A stretch of DNA of 64,000 nt, taken from positions 62,001 through 126,000 of the forward strand of contig JAKPDO010000043.1 of the NCBI GenBank assembly GCA_029552545.1, given 5' to 3'. Shown piece by piece: positions 42,430 to 51,793 of the stretch. The stretch's first letter is position 1, and each line of letters begins with the position of its first letter. Source of the DNA: Planctomycetota bacterium. GTDB taxonomy: Bacteria > Planctomycetota > Phycisphaerae > Sedimentisphaerales > Anaerohalosphaeraceae. Under the pieces are notes generated by a model. The model saw only the letters and a list, made by a program, of their open reading frames with translations. It was not told where the DNA came from and did not search any database. Both the position numbers and the translations under genes were made by a program.

Positions 42430-43227
42430 ATGAACAAAAAAGGTTTTACCCTCATCGAGCTGCTGGTTGTGATTGCGATTATTGCTTTGCTGATAGCAGT
42501 GATTATGCCGGCACTTCGAAAGGCCCGGGAAGCAGCGAAATCCCTCTCCTGTCGAAACAACCTGAAGCAAATGACCCTTGCTTTCAGTGTTTACAGTCAG
42601 GAAAACAAAGGTCGTATGTTTCCTTTAGGGTATGGAGCGGATTATTGGTTTCGGAAAATTGCTCCTTTCTTGGGAGACCAGTATTTTCAGCAGAACCCTA
42701 CGCTGGACCGTTCCGGAGTGATGCAGATTAACATTTGCCCTTCTACGAAGATTCAGACGTCCAGGGAAAACGGAACGTTTGACACAACATGGTATTTTCA
42801 GAATGGCATTGGCAGTTATGGGTTAAATTGCTGGCTTTTGCCTGATGTCCCCGATTCAAGCGGGCGAACCTGGTACGAGAAATGGGGGGGAAATTTAGGA
42901 CAGACGGCCGGTCGTTATTTTGAACGGTATACAATGGCTCGAGCGGATGCCGGGCTCTTGGCGGATGCTTTTCGAATGGATGTCTGGCCAATGCCTGACC
43001 AGGAGATTTCCCTTCGTCTCTCTACAGAAAGATCTCAATTGAAAGAGCCGGGAGGGCTGCCGCACAATCCCAATTATTTTCTCCGCCGCTACATGGTGGA
43101 CCGCCATGGAATGGCAGTGAATGTCGGTTTTGTCGGAGGATATGTGGAAAAGGTTCATATAAAAGACCTTGGATTGGTCAGTTGGAGTAAACGAGCAACT
43201 CCCAGGGCTGATGTTGTGGTTCCCTGA
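42430..43227 (+). CDS. Pseudopilin with [10 protein letters not shown] cleavage/methylation signal
   Basis: 265 aa. Prepilin-peptidase site in [28 protein letters not shown]: cleavage after Gly, methylation of Phe, Glu at +5. The body has the planctomycete-type fold ([37 protein letters not shown]). Near the end [17 protein letters not shown] matches the processing-associated H-X9-DG motif, but with Gly in place of Asp. It is exported to the inner membrane and assembled or displayed by a type II/IV-like system. The start at 42430 is likely; an ATG at 42406 would add DREREKK. A terminator lies on each side. Confidence 0.86.
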
Positions 43228-43262
43228 TTTTTCAAGAATAGCTTCTCCTCTCCTCTTCCCAG

Positions 43263-43296
43263 AAAGCCGCTTTTATTTTTTTAAAGCGGCTTTTTT
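43263..43296 (+). terminator. Rho-independent terminator after the pseudopilin gene
   Basis: Stem AAAGCCGCTTT (43263-43273) with AAAGCGGCTTT (43283-43293), 9-base loop, T-run. It isolates the pseudopilin gene from the tRNA-Ser gene downstream. Confidence 0.88.
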
Positions 43297-43353
43297 GTTT
43301 CAAGAGGGAATCGAAAGTTAAAAGATTTTCCTTCAAATTCTTTTCAGAAAAAG

Positions 43354-43359
43354 TATAAT
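43354..43359 (+). promoter_or_regulatory. Candidate -10 box for tRNA-Ser
   Basis: A perfect TATAAT 37 bases before the mature tRNA 5' end. No good -35 is seen at 16-18 bases (CTTCAA at 17). Confidence 0.4.
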
Positions 43360-43396
43360 TAAGTTAACAAAGAGACAAGATAGGTCTGGTATTTAT

Positions 43397-43484
43397 GGAG
43401 AGGTGTCGGAGTGGCTGATCGAGCAGCCTTGGAAAGGCTGTGTAGGGCTTGTCTCTACCGCGGGTTCGAATCCCGCCCTCTCCG
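43397..43484 (+). tRNA. tRNA-Ser (anticodon GGA)
   Basis: Class II tRNA of 88 nt. Acceptor GGAGAGG pairs with CCTCTCC (43477-43483), discriminator G at 43484. The anticodon stem CAGCC/GGCTG encloses the loop TTGGAAA (anticodon GGA). The long variable arm has GTAG/CTAC, and the T arm is GCGGG-TTCGAAT-CCCGC. CCA is not encoded. There is no terminator directly after it; a structured element carrying a copy of the tRNA 3' end follows. Confidence 0.97.
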
Positions 43485-43487
43485 GTT
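43467..43487 (+). repeat. Direct repeat copy 1 (tRNA-Ser 3' end), att-like
   Basis: 21-bp sequence starting CGAATCCCGCC and ending CTCTCCGGTT. It covers the T-loop, T-stem and acceptor 3' strand of tRNA-Ser plus 3 bases beyond. An identical copy lies exactly 158 bp downstream. A repeat of a tRNA 3' end is what site-specific integration leaves. Confidence 0.85.
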
Positions 43488-43555
43488 TGCCGGGTGGTTG
43501 ACATAGGGGAAAAGGGTCTGTGTTCTCGACAGCGGAATTGTCCTTGTTTTTCCCC

Positions 43556-43636
43556 GGGCGGGATGAGAACCCGCAGGACGCAGATGCGTCATCAAGCGGG
43601 TTCGACACCGAAGGAGCCGCGAAGCGAATCCCGCCC
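43556..43636 (+). ncRNA. Nested-stem structured sequence downstream of tRNA-Ser
   Basis: Perfect outer stem GGGCGGGAT (43556-43564) with ATCCCGCCC (43628-43636). Inside it is a perfect 8-bp stem GAACCCGC (43567-43574) with GCGGGTTC (43596-43603). Within that is a hairpin GACGC (43577-43581) with GCGTC (43586-43590). A small CGC-GAA-GCG hairpin (43618-43626) lies between the second and outer right arms. This much perfect pairing in 81 bases suggests selection for an RNA fold or a folded single-stranded DNA recombination site. The class is not recognised. Confidence 0.5.
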
Positions 43637-43645
43637 TCTCCGGTT
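43625..43645 (+). repeat. Direct repeat copy 2 of the tRNA-Ser 3' end
   Basis: Identical over 21 bp to 43467-43487. Its central bases form the right arm of the outer stem of the structured element. Confidence 0.85.
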
Positions 43646-43674
43646 ATCGTTTTCTTCTGAAAAGAGGTCAGCTT

Positions 43675-44589
43675 ATGTCTTTCTGTTATTCTGTTCTACT
43701 GCCGCTTGGGTTGCTTTTTTCCCTCGGAACGGCCGGCTCTTCTTCTGCCCCTTCCGACAAGAAGGCCGGGCCGGTTTATCGGGATTTGGCTTACGTGGCC
43801 GGCGGGCACGAACGGCAGAAGCTGGATTTGTATCTGCCTGCCGAAGGAGAGAATTTTCCCCTGATTGTCTATATTCACGGCGGGGCCTTTCTGGCGGGCA
43901 GTAAGGAACAGGGGGTTCCGCTGGAGTATGTCAGGGACGGTTATGCCGTTGCGTCCATCAATTATCGACTCAGTCAGCACGCCAAATTCCCGGCCCAGGT
44001 TGAGGACTGCAAGGCGGCGGTCCGCTGGCTTCGATGCCATGCAGGGGATTACCGGATTGACCCCAATCATATCGCCGCCTGGGGGCCTTCGGCCGGAGGG
44101 TATCTGGCGGCTATGCTGGGCGTAACCGGCGATACGAAAGAGTTTGACAAGGGGGAGCATCTCGAGTTTTCCAGTGCGGTGCAGGCCGTTGTCGATTATT
44201 TCGGGCCGACGGATTTTTTGCAGATGGATACTCACCGCTTGCCGGATGGAATGGTTCACAATTCGCCGGATTCTCCGGAGTCCCGGTTAATCGGCGGGCC
44301 GATACAGGAAAATAAGGACAGGGTTTTAAAGGCCAATCCAATTACCTATGTTTCCCAAAACGATCCTCCCTTTTTGATAATCCACGGTGACCAGGACCCG
44401 CTGGTGCCTCATCATCAGAGCATTCTGCTGGATGAGGCCCTTCGAAAAGCGGGGGTGCCGGTGATTTTCTATACCGTCAAAGGGGGCAGGCACGGCAATT
44501 TTCGCGACCCCAACGTTCCGCGGCTGACCCGAGAATTCCTTGAAAAGAACCTGAAGGGGAAATCTGCTGCCTCTGATAAGCCGAAATGA
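43675..44589 (+). CDS. Secreted alpha/beta hydrolase esterase (BD-FAE/CE10-like)
   Basis: 304 aa with signal peptide (YSVLLPLGLLFSLGTAGSSSA). Oxyanion motif IVYIHGGAF, nucleophile in WGPSAGGYLAAM, acid in HGDQDPLVP and His in KGGRHGNF complete a hormone-sensitive-lipase-like triad. Related secreted enzymes remove acyl or aryl groups from polysaccharides. It overlaps the GH78 gene by 4 bases, suggesting deacylation of a rhamnose-containing glycan before hydrolysis. AGAGG before the ATG supports this start. Confidence 0.83.
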   Translation: MSFCYSVLLPLGLLFSLGTAGSSSAPSDKKAGPVYRDLAYVAGGHERQKLDLYLPAEGENFPLIVYIHGGAFLAGSKEQGVPLEYVRDGYAVASINYRLSQHAKFPAQVEDCKAAVRWLRCHAGDYRIDPNHIAAWGPSAGGYLAAMLGVTGDTKEFDKGEHLEFSSAVQAVVDYFGPTDFLQMDTHRLPDGMVHNSPDSPESRLIGGPIQENKDRVLKANPITYVSQNDPPFLIIHGDQDPLVPHHQSILLDEALRKAGVPVIFYTVKGGRHGNFRDPNVPRLTREFLEKNLKGKSAASDKPK

Positions 44590-47378
44590 CAGCCAAATTC
44601 ACAAAATGGAAGTTTTTTTGCATCTGGCTTGCCGGGTTAGAAGGGCTCTTCTTCGGGGGCTGTCAATTATTTCTGGGCCCTTCGGACCGGATCGCGTTTG
44701 CGGTTGATTCTTTGCGATGCGAGTATCTGACCGACCCGCTGGGAATTGACACCCCCAGACCTCGTCTCAGCTGGGTCATCCATTCAGCACGGCAGGGGGT
44801 TTTCCAGTCCGCTTATCAGATTCTGGTTGCATCGTCCGAACAAAACCTGGCGGAGGGTCGGGCGGATATCTGGGACAGCGGAAAAGTTCTGTCCGGTCAG
44901 TCTGTGAATGTGGAATATGCGGGCCCGCCGCTCAAGTCCGCCGCTTCCTATTTTTGGAAGGTACGGGTCTGGGACCGGCAGGGCTGGCGTTCGCCTTGGA
45001 GCCGTCCTGCCTGCTGGACGATGGGACTTCTGAATGACCAGGATTGGAAGGCCGAATGGATTCATGCCTCACAGCCCCAGTCTTCCCTTTATCCGCTGCC
45101 GATTTTCCGAAAAACCTTTGCCGTAAAAGCCGGCGTCCAAAAGGCCTTTGTTTTTGTCAGCGGGCTGGGCCATTATGAGTTGTATCTGAACGGCGGCAAG
45201 GTCGGCGACCATTTTCTGGCCCCCGCCTGGTCCGTTTATGAAAAGACGGTTTATTACGATACCTTTGATATTACAGATGCCCTTCGGGAAGGGCCGAATG
45301 CCTTCGGCGTGATGCTGGGCAAGGGGTTTTACAATACGAAGGGAGACCGCCGCATTCATTTTGTCAGGGCCGACCGCCTCCTGAAGCTGATTCTGCAGGC
45401 CCGGATTGTTTACAAAGACGGTTCGGAACAGATTGTCTGTACGGATGATTCCTGGAAGTGGATGGGCGGGCCTTATCTCCACAATGCGATTCTCGGCGGC
45501 AGCAGCTATGACGCCCAACGTCTTCCGGCCGGCTGGGCGGAGCCGGGCTTTGATGATTCCCAGTGGTTTTCGGCTGAACGGACCAACGGCCCGGGCGGGC
45601 GGTTATCCGCTTCTATGTTTCCTCCGATGAAGACCGTACGGGTCTTCAAACCGGTCAGGATTGAGGAGCCGGAGCCGGGCTATTTTGTGTATGATTTCGG
45701 ACAAAATGCCTCCTTTGTGCCGCGGATTACGGTTGCGGGACCTGCGGGCTCGACGGTCCGGATGACGCCTGCTGAACAGCGGCACGGCCAGACCGGCAAT
45801 ATCAATGACGGCCGAGGCCGGGTCAATCAGGCGGGGCTCGGCAAGCCGAACTATTGGGAATACACCCTGCGGGGGGATGGGGAAGAAGTCTGGATGGATG
45901 CTTTTTGTTATACCGGTTTTCAGTATTTGGAAATCTCCGGTGCTGTTCCGGAGGGATTTCCGAATCCGTCGGGTCTGCCTGTTGTTAAGGATTTGTCGGC
46001 TGTGCAGGTGCGGAGTGCTTGCGAACGGGTCGGCACATTCACCTGCTCCAAGCCCCTGTTCAACGCTATTGACCGGCTGATTGACTGGGCCGTGCAGAGC
46101 AATATGGCTCATGTCCTGACGGATTGCCCCCAGCGGGAGAAACTCGGCTGGCTCGAGCAGACCTATCTGATGGGGCCGTCGATTTTCTGGAATTACGATG
46201 CGGCGGCATATTTCGGAAAAATCGCACGAGATATCCGGGATTCGCAGGATTCGAGCGGACAGATTTTCACTGTTGCTCCCAGTTTTCCTGTCTTCCAGGG
46301 GGCCTATCAGTACAGCCCTGAATGGGGGGCCGCAGGCGTCTTTGTCCCCTGGCTGACGTTTCAATGGTATCAGGACCGGCGCATCCTTGAAGAGAACTAC
46401 GAAATGATGAAGCGGTTTGTCGATTGGATGGAGGCGACTTCCGACAATCTGATTCCCGTTTCCGGCCTGGGCGATTGGTATGATTACGGGCACGGCCAAT
46501 CCCTCGGGCCATCCCGTTTTACGCCGAAAACGCTGACCGCGGCGGCAATCTTTTACGGCTGTGCGCAAACGCTTTGCGATGCTGCCGGCGTGCTCGGAAA
46601 ACCAGAAGACAGCCGCCGGTACAGCGGCCTTTGCGAAAAAATAAGACATCGTTTCAACAGCGAATTTTTCGACGGCAGGGCGGTCTATCAGAACTTCGGC
46701 AGCCCCCAGACGGCCAATGCAATGGCTCTGGTGTTTGCTCTGCCGCCGCAGGAGGCCCGCTTGTCGGTTCTTGAAACGCTTATCGAGGACCTTCGGCGGC
46801 GAAACTGGCAGCAGACCGCCGGAGACATCGGATTTCATTATCTGGTGCGGGCTTTGATGGATGCCGGCCGTTCCGATGTTCTGTATCGGATTGCAAGCCG
46901 CACAGATGTAGGCAGTTACGGATGGATTCTTCAGCAGGGCTGGACCTCATTGCCGGAGGCCTGGGATGCAACGACTACCTCTTCGATGAATCATCTGATG
47001 TTAGGCCATATTCAGCAGTGGTTTGGACAGGGCCTTGTCGGGATTCGGCCGCATCCGGAGGAACCCGGTTTTCGAAAGTTTCTTGTCTGGCCGGAACCGG
47101 TTGAAGACCTGCAATGGTGCGAAGGGACTTACTGTTCTCTGTACGGCCCGATTGAGGTCTCCTGGTCCTGCAAAGAAAAGGAGTTTACCCTCAACCTGAC
47201 GGTTCCCTGCAATACAGCAGCGGAGGCGGCACTTCCGGCAGACAGCCCCCGGCTTGTCCGCGTGAATGGAAAACCGCTCGGCGCTTTTCGAGAGGCCGTT
47301 TTTCTCCGGATGCAGGACGGCAGGGCAGTCATTCTCGTTCCGTCCGGACGGTACCAGTTTCAGTCCAAACTGCCTTGA
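44586..47378 (+). CDS. GH78 alpha-L-rhamnosidase-like lipoprotein
   Basis: 930 aa. The N-terminus (FFCIWLAGLEGLFFGGCQLF) has a lipobox-like FGGC, so it may be anchored in a membrane. A fibronectin-like start (LRCEYLTDPLGIDTPRPRLSW) and beta-sandwich domains lead to the (alpha/alpha)6 catalytic domain with DCPQREKLGWLEQTYLM, the GH78 signature carrying the catalytic acid region, and then GLGDWYDYG and SYGWILQQGWTSLPEAWD. It should release alpha-L-rhamnose from pectin, ulvan-like or plant glycosides. Its start overlaps the esterase stop (ATGA). Confidence 0.9.
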   Translation: MTAKFTKWKFFCIWLAGLEGLFFGGCQLFLGPSDRIAFAVDSLRCEYLTDPLGIDTPRPRLSWVIHSARQGVFQSAYQILVASSEQNLAEGRADIWDSGKVLSGQSVNVEYAGPPLKSAASYFWKVRVWDRQGWRSPWSRPACWTMGLLNDQDWKAEWIHASQPQSSLYPLPIFRKTFAVKAGVQKAFVFVSGLGHYELYLNGGKVGDHFLAPAWSVYEKTVYYDTFDITDALREGPNAFGVMLGKGFYNTKGDRRIHFVRADRLLKLILQARIVYKDGSEQIVCTDDSWKWMGGPYLHNAILGGSSYDAQRLPAGWAEPGFDDSQWFSAERTNGPGGRLSASMFPPMKTVRVFKPVRIEEPEPGYFVYDFGQNASFVPRITVAGPAGSTVRMTPAEQRHGQTGNINDGRGRVNQAGLGKPNYWEYTLRGDGEEVWMDAFCYTGFQYLEISGAVPEGFPNPSGLPVVKDLSAVQVRSACERVGTFTCSKPLFNAIDRLIDWAVQSNMAHVLTDCPQREKLGWLEQTYLMGPSIFWNYDAAAYFGKIARDIRDSQDSSGQIFTVAPSFPVFQGAYQYSPEWGAAGVFVPWLTFQWYQDRRILEENYEMMKRFVDWMEATSDNLIPVSGLGDWYDYGHGQSLGPSRFTPKTLTAAAIFYGCAQTLCDAAGVLGKPEDSRRYSGLCEKIRHRFNSEFFDGRAVYQNFGSPQTANAMALVFALPPQEARLSVLETLIEDLRRRNWQQTAGDIGFHYLVRALMDAGRSDVLYRIASRTDVGSYGWILQQGWTSLPEAWDATTTSSMNHLMLGHIQQWFGQGLVGIRPHPEEPGFRKFLVWPEPVEDLQWCEGTYCSLYGPIEVSWSCKEKEFTLNLTVPCNTAAEAALPADSPRLVRVNGKPLGAFREAVFLRMQDGRAVILVPSGRYQFQSKLP

Positions 47379-48934: not shown

Positions 48935-51793
48935 TTACGGCTTTTTCCAGACGTACTGTCGCGGGACTCCGCTGTAGTAAAGGAGGGCATCCGGCTGTTT
49001 CGTGATTTCGATGCCGGTTCCGTAATTGTCCCGGACAAAGACAATCTGAAACGTGCGGTTTTTGAGCATCCCGTCGAAGCTGCCTTTTCGTTCTCCGATT
49101 GTCAGGGTCTTTTCCTGTTCGTTCCATCGAAACTCGATGGTGCTGTACGCTCCTTTTTCATAGTTATAGCCGTCATTTTCGTCTTCATAAAGCACAAAGG
49201 CCCCGTCGGTGCCCGGGTAGATTCGCAATTCAATCGGGTCAGCTGGTTTCTCCGCGGCATACTGAACAAACGGACCCATGGGGAGAATAGTGCCGGCACG
49301 GACATACAGAGGGATTCTGTCAATCGGTGCATCGGCCTGGAGCGTCTGTCCGCCCGCCAATCGTTTTCCCGTCCAGAAATCCACCCACTCCGTCCCCGCC
49401 GGCAGATAAACCGAACGGGTCTGCTTTCGCGGTTCTGTTTGTTTTTCGCGGCGGTGGATATCCGGGGTTTTCCAGAACAACTGAGCCCGGAAGGCCCCTA
49501 AGACCGAATTAGAGGTTTCGAACGCAAAGTCATAGGCCCTGCCCGCTTCCAGTTCAACCGGAACGGTATAAAACTCTACCGACCAGTAATTGCAGGGCAC
49601 CTCTTTGCCGTCCAGAAACAGCCGTTTGGGGCCGAAACTTTTCATATGAAACCGATGCGGCCCGCTTTGCGTGGGAATCAGCTTGCCCTCCCAGCGCATT
49701 GAAAACGTCTCGTCCTCAATAAAGTCCGGCCAGCCGGTGTACCAGAACAGATTGATGTTGGGTTCGATTTGCTGTCGGCAGACCTGCTGGAAGTTTGCAT
49801 CGCTGTAGTAAGTCGCCTTCAGGCCGCGTTTGCCGTCCGGAGTGCGGAAATGTTCAGGCCCAATCAAAACGCTGTCTTCCGGCGGACGATGCAGCATATA
49901 TTCCGTAACCGGGCAGACCAGAAGGGCCGGGCCGAACATGAACTCATCGTCTATCGAGTAGGTTCGCCGGTCTTCGGCGAAATCCATCGGCAGCCCCCGC
50001 ATCAGCGTATAGCCCTCACGGGTGATGCGCCAGGCCAGCGAGTAAATATAGGGCAGCAGCCGATACCGAAGCCGGTCAAACCGAATCAGGATATCGGTAA
50101 AGTCCCCAAACTCCCAGATTTCCCGCGGCGTCTCTGAGCCGTGAGCCCGAAAAATTGGACAAAACGCCCCAAACTGAAACATTCGTGTATAGAGTTCCTG
50201 GTAGGCCGGGTCTTTGCCTCCGTTGGAGAAGACCCCGCCGTAGCTTCCAATCACAAAGCCGCCGATGTCAAACGTCCAGTAGGGCACGCCGGCCATGCAG
50301 TGATTTAAGCCGGCGGAAATCTGTTTGCGATACGTCTCCCAGTTGGCGCCGATGTCCCCGGACCAGGTTGCGGCGGCGTTCCGCTGCTGGCCGGCAAAGC
50401 TCGAACGGGTCAGAATATAGACGCGTTTCTGTTCATTCTCTTTTCGCAGGTTTTGATAGAGGGCATCCGTCATCACCAGCGAATAGGTGTTCAGATAGCG
50501 GGCAAAAGAACCGCGATGATTTCTGCCGATGTATTTCAGCCACGCCTCCGTTCCCTCTTTGGTGAGGGCGTTAATCACATCCGGTTCCGTCGAATCAATC
50601 CACCAGGCGTCAATCCCTTTCGAAATGAGCCCTTCTTTCAGATAGTTCCAATAGACGGCGTTGGCCTGCGGGTTGTAGGCGTCATAGTATTTAAAGCCGG
50701 CCCAGCCGAACGGCGGATACAGAAAGCCGTTTCGGTCCATCTCTTTAAAAACGGCTGTATCCGGCCCCAACCCCGGCCAGATGGAAATCATCAGGTGATA
50801 ATTTATCTGATGCAGCAGGTCCACCATTTCTTTGGGATTCGGATAACGGGTTTCGTCAAAGACCATTCCGCCCCAGTTGTTATTCCCGCCCCAGTAGTTC
50901 CAGTCCTGAATGAGATTGTCAATCGGGATTTGACGCCGCCGATACTCTTCTGCAACACTCAGCAGCTCCTGACGGGTCTTGTAGTGTTCTTTGCTTTGCC
51001 AGTAGCCGTAGGCCCATTTGCCGTACAGCGGGGCCTGTCCGGTGAGGTCTCGATACCCTGCGATCACCTCATCCATCGTTCGGCCTGCGATGAAATAATA
51101 ATCCATCTGGCGGCCGACCTCGGAATGGAAGGACATTCCGCCGATGCTGTCGGAAAAAATGGTTTTTGAGTAGTTGTCCCAAAGAATGCCCCAGCCGCCG
51201 GTGGAAACCAAAAACGGAATAGCGGCTTCCGTGTTGGATTGAACCAGTGTTACCGTTCGGCCCCGATAGTTCATATACCCGTCCTGATGCTGGCCGAGAC
51301 CGTATAACCCTTCCTCCGGACGCAGGGTAAACCGCTGTTCCAGACTGAATACGTTTGTTTCATAAGGAATCTCAACCGGATGAATGGCAGGGGGGCCTTG
51401 TTCCTTTAACAGAGTTTGTCCGGCAGCATTCTGATATTCGATTGTCCCGTTTTCCTTAGACAAGCGGACTGTGAGCTTATCCGAGCAAAGGACAAACTGG
51501 TATGCATCTTCAGCCAGAGACAGCTTTACCCGCTCCGGGTTGGAAGCAATGACAACCAAACTGTTGGGTTCGGGTACCGCAGGTTTTACCCATTTTATCA
51601 CACGAACTTTGTTGTCTCCGTAAAAACGGATTCGTGTGAAGGATTGTCCGTTCGTCCATTCAATTCCATTGTGGACAACTTTTACTGTTCCGGAGGCAGG
51701 GGGCAGGACGGTCTGCTGTTGACAGGAACCCCCAAAAACCGCCGTTAAAAGACCCACAATGACGACATGTCCGTTGTTCGGATTGAGCGGCAT
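48935..51793 (-). CDS. GH31 alpha-xylosidase-like lipoprotein with PA14 domain
   Basis: 952 aa. The N-terminus (HVVIVGLLTAVFGGSCQQQ) has a probable lipobox. An N-terminal beta-sandwich is followed by the GH31 barrel, with nucleophile Asp400 in WWIDSTEPD and acid/base Asp480 in WSGDIGANWETYRKQISAGLNH. The PA14-like domain falls at about 645-790 (GLKATYYSDANFQQV...LFLDGKEV...GRAYDFAFE), then C-terminal beta domains. GH31 enzymes with a PA14 insert include xyloglucan-specific alpha-xylosidases that prefer long oligosaccharides. It differs strongly from the other GH31 in this window. AAGGA before the ATG. Divergent from the YbhB-like gene. Confidence 0.9.
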   Translation of the reverse strand: MPLNPNNGHVVIVGLLTAVFGGSCQQQTVLPPASGTVKVVHNGIEWTNGQSFTRIRFYGDNKVRVIKWVKPAVPEPNSLVVIASNPERVKLSLAEDAYQFVLCSDKLTVRLSKENGTIEYQNAAGQTLLKEQGPPAIHPVEIPYETNVFSLEQRFTLRPEEGLYGLGQHQDGYMNYRGRTVTLVQSNTEAAIPFLVSTGGWGILWDNYSKTIFSDSIGGMSFHSEVGRQMDYYFIAGRTMDEVIAGYRDLTGQAPLYGKWAYGYWQSKEHYKTRQELLSVAEEYRRRQIPIDNLIQDWNYWGGNNNWGGMVFDETRYPNPKEMVDLLHQINYHLMISIWPGLGPDTAVFKEMDRNGFLYPPFGWAGFKYYDAYNPQANAVYWNYLKEGLISKGIDAWWIDSTEPDVINALTKEGTEAWLKYIGRNHRGSFARYLNTYSLVMTDALYQNLRKENEQKRVYILTRSSFAGQQRNAAATWSGDIGANWETYRKQISAGLNHCMAGVPYWTFDIGGFVIGSYGGVFSNGGKDPAYQELYTRMFQFGAFCPIFRAHGSETPREIWEFGDFTDILIRFDRLRYRLLPYIYSLAWRITREGYTLMRGLPMDFAEDRRTYSIDDEFMFGPALLVCPVTEYMLHRPPEDSVLIGPEHFRTPDGKRGLKATYYSDANFQQVCRQQIEPNINLFWYTGWPDFIEDETFSMRWEGKLIPTQSGPHRFHMKSFGPKRLFLDGKEVPCNYWSVEFYTVPVELEAGRAYDFAFETSNSVLGAFRAQLFWKTPDIHRREKQTEPRKQTRSVYLPAGTEWVDFWTGKRLAGGQTLQADAPIDRIPLYVRAGTILPMGPFVQYAAEKPADPIELRIYPGTDGAFVLYEDENDGYNYEKGAYSTIEFRWNEQEKTLTIGERKGSFDGMLKNRTFQIVFVRDNYGTGIEITKQPDALLYYSGVPRQYVWKKP

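Follow-up and report, generated by a model that had tools for sequence, protein, structure and literature searches.

Structure of the element downstream of tRNA-Ser(GGA)

The DNA analyzed in the present study, referred to as the window, is a stretch of 64,000 nt in which a tRNA-Ser(GGA) gene (43396-43485 on the plus strand according to ARAGORN, 43397-43484 according to Rfam) is followed by a small hairpin-forming element, assigned below to the tRNA-linked repeats (TLRs). The locus consists of the following parts, with the basis of each given in brackets:

43396..43485, plus strand: tRNA-Ser(GGA), host gene of the repeat (ARAGORN and Rfam)
43467..43487, plus strand: first copy of the 21-bp repeat, from the T-loop to the tRNA 3' end plus 2-3 nt (exact direct repeat)
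43488..43555, plus strand: spacer between the tRNA and the TLR core (sequence, terminator scan)
43556..43574, plus strand: left arm GGGCGGGATGAGAACCCGC, antisense to the T-arm at 43460-43478 and forming the 5' strands of helices P1 and P2 (inverted repeat)
43577..43590, plus strand: variable hairpin P3, GACGC-AGAT-GCGTC (folds; covarying stem)
43596..43606, plus strand: GCGGGTTCGAC, which repeats the 5' half of the T-arm and supplies the 3' strand of P2 (alignment A1, pair counts)
43618..43626, plus strand: mini-hairpin CGC-GAA-GCG with a GNA triloop (folds; stem invariant in A1; loop statistics)
43625..43645, plus strand: right arm, second copy of the repeat, from the T-loop to the 3' end of the tRNA (exact direct repeat)
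43563..43670, plus strand: spurious reading frame MRTRRTQMRHQAG..., corresponding to Tpr in E. coli (translation; no evidence of a gene)

The sequence CGAATCCCGCCCTCTCCGGTT is present at 43467-43487 and again at 43625-43645, with 21/21 identical nucleotides and a spacing of 158, which confirms the first-pass annotation in its description of a tRNA-Ser gene followed by an element ending in a copy of the tRNA 3' end. No other direct repeat of ≥12 nt was found within 42900-44400, and an exact 21-nt repeat inside 1.5 kb is not expected to originate by chance. The first copy begins in the T-loop and runs 2 nt beyond the called tRNA end, and the end of the TLR at 43643 is the equivalent of the tRNA end at 43485. 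The left arm (43556-43574), which is conserved in 20 relatives, is an inverted copy of the T-arm (43460-43478) with 89% complementarity, a feature absent from the first-pass annotation, and the outer helix is closed by the right arm. In folding, the 86-nt core surpassed 200 of 200 shuffled sequences, with z values of -4.4 as RNA and -4.2 as DNA. An esterase-like ORF is the next gene and begins 30 nt beyond the TLR, and a search with the covariance model R1 (described below) detected one TLR only in this genome. Farther downstream, two large ORFs at 44586-47378 and 48935-51793 appear by eye to encode secreted, glycoside hydrolase-like proteins (rhamnosidase-like and glucosidase-like).

Assignment to the tRNA-linked repeats

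The original papers on TLRs are those of Rudd (1999) and of Bosl and Kersten (1991). The assignment of the window element to the TLRs, i.e., non-coding, hairpin-forming repeats behind stable-RNA genes, is well supported. A TLR follows its tRNA or rRNA gene directly, within one operon, and 18-19 bp of its 3' end agree with the 3' end of the gene; the element considered here lies 70 nt behind tRNA-Ser on the same strand, reproduces 21 bp of it exactly, and resembles the E. coli TLRs beyond the copied end, both in the matches of the R1 model and in the order of its parts, which is that of the proK TLR (GAGGATGAGAACCTCC..GGAGGTTCGAC..GCCACGAAGTGGCGAGTAATCCTC). TLRs have been known in E. coli since 1978 (Egan and Landy 1978 and Rudd 1999, cited in PMC8144298), and 22 copies at ten loci are reported for strain K-12 (PMC8144298). 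In the K-12 sequence, copies were located behind tyrT, tyrV, proK, argQ, argZ, and argV and, in rrnB, behind 5S, between the two terminators.

The features shared with the E. coli TLRs are the position directly behind a stable-RNA gene on the same strand, a 3' end that matches that of the gene in front exactly, the left arm ..GGATGAGAACC.., the inner GGTTCGAC, the CGAAG mini-hairpins, the right arm ..AATCC, the occurrence of tandem copies, and a Tpr-like reading frame. At the same time, the window core is shorter and lacks the E. coli hairpin AACGTTGC..GCAACG, GAGTAATCC is replaced by GAATCC, P3 is a long palindrome, and the host belongs to another phylum. The RtT RNA family RF00391 (tyrT operon; rttR) likewise has the outer and inner helices, GGAUGAGAACC, and CGCGAAGCGA, and in its alignment with the window GGATGAGAACC and CGCGAAGCGA are common to both; the score of 19.4 bits lies below the gathering threshold of 45, and RF00391 gave zero matches over 149 genomes of the phylum. 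The window element is a TLR variant out of range of the Rfam RtT model. Additionally, the Xanthomonas sRNA sX4 (RF02223) contains a tRNA-Ser-like part, and its end GGGGGGUGAGA resembles the TLR left arm, whereas window positions 43385-43566 score 23.5 bits against a cut-off of 70, and this likeness is a lead only; sX4 may be a mis-bounded tRNA plus TLR.

Distribution of related elements

A DNA search over 59 relatives detected homologs in the genus, the family, and the order, following tRNA-Ser genes with GGA, CGA, and GCT anticodons. A pattern scan covering 84,980 genomes resulted in 12 true matches, all in Planctomycetota, plus two chance matches that were discarded (L035 and L040); a tRNA was in front of 10 of the 12 (tRNA-His in one case), and the other two were located at a contig or locus end. 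The R1 model, built from 20 relatives without E. coli sequences, found TLRs in 45 of the 298 sampled genomes of the class, with at most 11 per genome. A same-strand tRNA preceded 71 of the 81 R1 matches inspected, and, among the remaining ten, five were cut by contig ends, one was behind tmRNA, two were 1-5 kb behind tRNA-Ser, and two were unexplained. The first-pass annotation had suspected a widespread undescribed element that recurs next to tRNAs elsewhere; the recurrence behind tRNA genes was borne out, but the class had already been described under the name of tRNA-linked repeats.

Applied to 110 kb of E. coli, R1 gave proK the top rank (E 0.0014), followed by four tyrT copies (0.01-0.06), these E-values being rough. 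With the R2 model, clear TLRs were found in Verrucomicrobiota, behind tRNA-Ser in G916 and G937 and, in G960, with the tRNA not within the stretch examined, and one TLR (L162) was found in Actinomycetota. Weak R2 matches outside the class (24-36 bits, 86-91 nt) were nearly all tRNA-Ser genes themselves and were discarded, as was L193, which is apparently coding. By these matches, TLR-type hairpin elements occur in at least four bacterial phyla, and earlier reports of them outside Enterobacterales are possible.

Local amplification is suggested for G050 (2.1 Mb) and G052 (1.7 Mb), two small genomes with 11 and 6 TLR matches, respectively, behind Pro, Arg, Cys, His, and Ser tRNAs. The TLR directly behind tmRNA (L113 228-699, G440:C50) has a right arm one base off the tmRNA 3' end. 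In L149 (1095-5909, G040:C53), the TLR lies 4.6 kb from its tRNA-Ser(UGA), with a partial copy of the tRNA 3' end directly before it, and seems to have moved or become separated from its tRNA. In L152 (1671-2835, G048:C78), a TLR remnant is located 1 kb behind tRNA-Ser(UGA), an antisense T-arm stands right behind the tRNA, and a 235-aa ORF lies in between.

Correspondence of the ends to the local gene and covariation of the core

Across 69 elements, the last 15 nt had a median identity of 1.0 to the local gene, and the local tRNA was the strictly best match of the right arm in 50. Among the 15 non-Ser elements, the right arm was identical to the local tRNA at 15/15 positions in 10, other tRNAs being much less alike. 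The identity of the left arm to the antisense of the local T-stem was 0.84, against 0.68 for other tRNAs, and in L111 the unusual T-loop of tRNA-Thr is mirrored in the left arm. The match of the duplicated end to the local tRNA, formulated at the outset as a check, was borne out.

Two-sided changes were observed in 17 of the 19 helix pairs, and 92.5% of the cells were paired, compared to 79% after shuffling (0/500 shuffles as good), in an alignment that leans to the model. Conservation and covariation of the core structure make a remnant left after deletion, as initially considered, unlikely.

Gain, loss, and aging of copies

The anticipated empty site was found in a species of the same genus, G001, which has no TLR at the syntenic, orthologous tRNA-Ser(GGA) gene; this species has TLR copies at tRNA-Ser(CGA), where the window genome has none and the next gene is, by eye, the same. 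A second copy of the spacer follows the right arm in 23 of 49 loci; it is in register in nearly all cases, and the signal exceeds that of every control. At eleven of these loci, the units form a tandem array with a further core, often an incomplete one; at the remaining loci, the repeated stretch begins in the T-loop, continues beyond the tRNA end, and typically stops near the terminator, extending 32-49 nt past the tRNA end in the clearest non-tandem cases. Terminator-like hairpins were present in 15 of the 49 spacers against 2.7 expected. In elements with a decayed spacer copy, the identity amounts to 94-97% over the T-stem and acceptor strand, drops to 0.69 at the discriminator, and reaches chance level a few bases later, and in older copies only ~18 tRNA-matching bases persist; since this profile ends at the tRNA 3' end, the tRNA-matching part appears to be kept by selection or conversion, with the caveat that serine-type right arms are favored by the search model itself. 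The window spacer has no second copy downstream of the right arm, and therefore the origin of the window TLR is argued from its relatives. Note that the motif ATGCGC occurs after the tRNA terminator, just before the core, in the tRNA-Ser spacers of L009, L074, L119, L138, and L147.

The full proK TLR is present in 2663 of 5369 E. coli genomes. Locus L212, without the full proK TLR, differs by exactly one 168-bp unit and retains the partial last unit, and L213, L215, and L216 have the same layout. Recombination between ~100-bp direct repeats is expected to yield such a difference, and the polymorphism is a copy-number change and no proof of transposition or mobility. Copy-number change of TLRs by recombination is, in this way, supported.

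The searches for Y1 transposases, integrases, and viral copies revealed no enzyme that could mobilize the repeats. The Y1 transposase domain PF01797 was present in 38/45 TLR genomes and in 251/298 of all genomes, the same 84%, i.e., no association was detected, and G001, G207, and G440 contain TLRs without PF01797. REP/RAYT-type repeats, which depend on a Y1 transposase encoded in the genome that carries them, were rejected, as the TLRs showed no such dependence, and the integron attC consensus gave no fit by eye.

A DNA hairpin or an RNA hairpin

GNA triloops were found in 46 of 104 core hairpins, compared to 2.2% in shuffled cores and 5/137 in flanks, with a single GNRA tetraloop among the core hairpins, and G.T accounted for 1 of 272 internal pairs in P3 stems against 12 of 392 in the tRNA acceptor stems of the same loci, all of these loop and pair counts being weakened by common descent and model bias. 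DNA mini-hairpins that carry a GNA or GNNA loop on a G-C stem are exceptionally stable, and d(GCGAAGC) has a melting temperature of 78 C (PMC4686876). The loops, the near absence of G.T, and this stability therefore favor a core shaped as single-stranded DNA or by palindrome-correcting DNA synthesis.

On balance, we consider it probable, by a modest inclination, that the TLR behaves as a short repetitive DNA element tied to tRNA genes rather than as a gene, with a core that is a hairpin of single-stranded DNA. New copies would come from insertion at the T-loop/3' end or from templated duplication there, their number would change by recombination between direct repeats, and the core would be shaped as a single-stranded DNA hairpin; in many relatives, the repeated unit comprises the 3' half of the tRNA, the spacer with its terminator, and the core, often in tandem. 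Mobility, transcription, and function in the window bacterium are what we infer. A broader proposition, that TLRs constitute one widespread class of single-stranded-DNA hairpins in at least four phyla, rebuilding both ends from the local tRNA, tmRNA, or 5S and copying the 3' half and the terminator by a mechanism undescribed for known mobile elements, is speculative and rather doubtful.

The tRNA-like right arm may instead be a 3'-processing signal, with the released hairpin RNA acting as a small regulatory RNA or tuning the processing of precursor tRNA, a reading that deserves consideration though we hold it to be unlikely. The TLR RNAs of E. coli include rttR and RrA/B/F, and three TLRs behind 5S are transcribed, processed, and bound by Hfq and CsrA (PMC8144298), which favors an RNA over a DNA-shaped core; however, CsrA binding is predicted to be absent for 19 E. 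coli TLRs, and an early tyrT phenotype was withdrawn (PMC8144298). The terminator scan of the window spacer (43488-43555) found no strong terminator, as would suit a joint transcript, whereas in the relatives the stretch from the tRNA to the TLR contains terminators more often than expected. The joint fold of tRNA and TLR is far more stable than those of shuffles (z -3.6), with the left arm paired with the T-arm, and the retention of 18 tRNA-matching bases to the exact tRNA end is also consistent with an RNA, but loops of the GNA and not the GNRA type and the scarcity of G.T pairs argue for the DNA hairpin.

A footprint or attachment site of a tyrosine recombinase, either a minimal cassette or a spare attB in the T-loop moved in trans by the integrases of larger elements, is improbable. 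Integration targeting tRNA genes produces a repeat from the T-loop to the tRNA 3' end, and the TLR shares such a direct repeat with the genomic islands at tRNA 3' ends; moreover, both arms resemble a palindromic core site, and the tandem arrays are cassette-like. Unlike these islands, however, the TLR is without integrase or cargo, its core is a conserved hairpin of 70-90 bp, and the tRNA terminator is duplicated too; 5S is also not a usual integration site. No integrase was found in or next to the repeats, which are spaced by 158 bp only, the nearest of the three PF00589 genes of the genome lying ~83 kb away on the contig, and the viral collection contained no TLR copies in its viral contigs. 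The footprint of site-specific integration proposed at first was not substantiated.

Finally, an explanation as a duplication, by chance or local, or as a gene for a small protein is very remote: the frame is open over the TLR and a Tpr ORF is annotated in E. coli, but homologs with covarying structure in several phyla refute the local duplication that had been kept as a fallback, and the window and E. coli peptides have only their first residues in common, so that the protein-coding reading was rejected. The peptide MRTRRTQMRHQAG is translated from the ATG in GGGATGAGAAC, and the E. coli "protamine-like" Tpr ORF starts at the equivalent ATG; the peptide that, in the impression of the first-pass annotation, recurs next to tRNAs in other genomes begins at the ATG of GGATGAGAAC, the start point of E. 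coli tpr as well, and corresponds to the Tpr ORF of an E. coli TLR.

Significance

TLRs have been known from E. coli for more than 40 years without an agreed function, and their structure is conserved across distant phyla, with each copy customized to the gene in front of it. The dozens of loci now at hand, together with presence/absence pairs, tandem arrays, and a one-unit polymorphism affecting about half of E. coli, make the role of the TLR testable.
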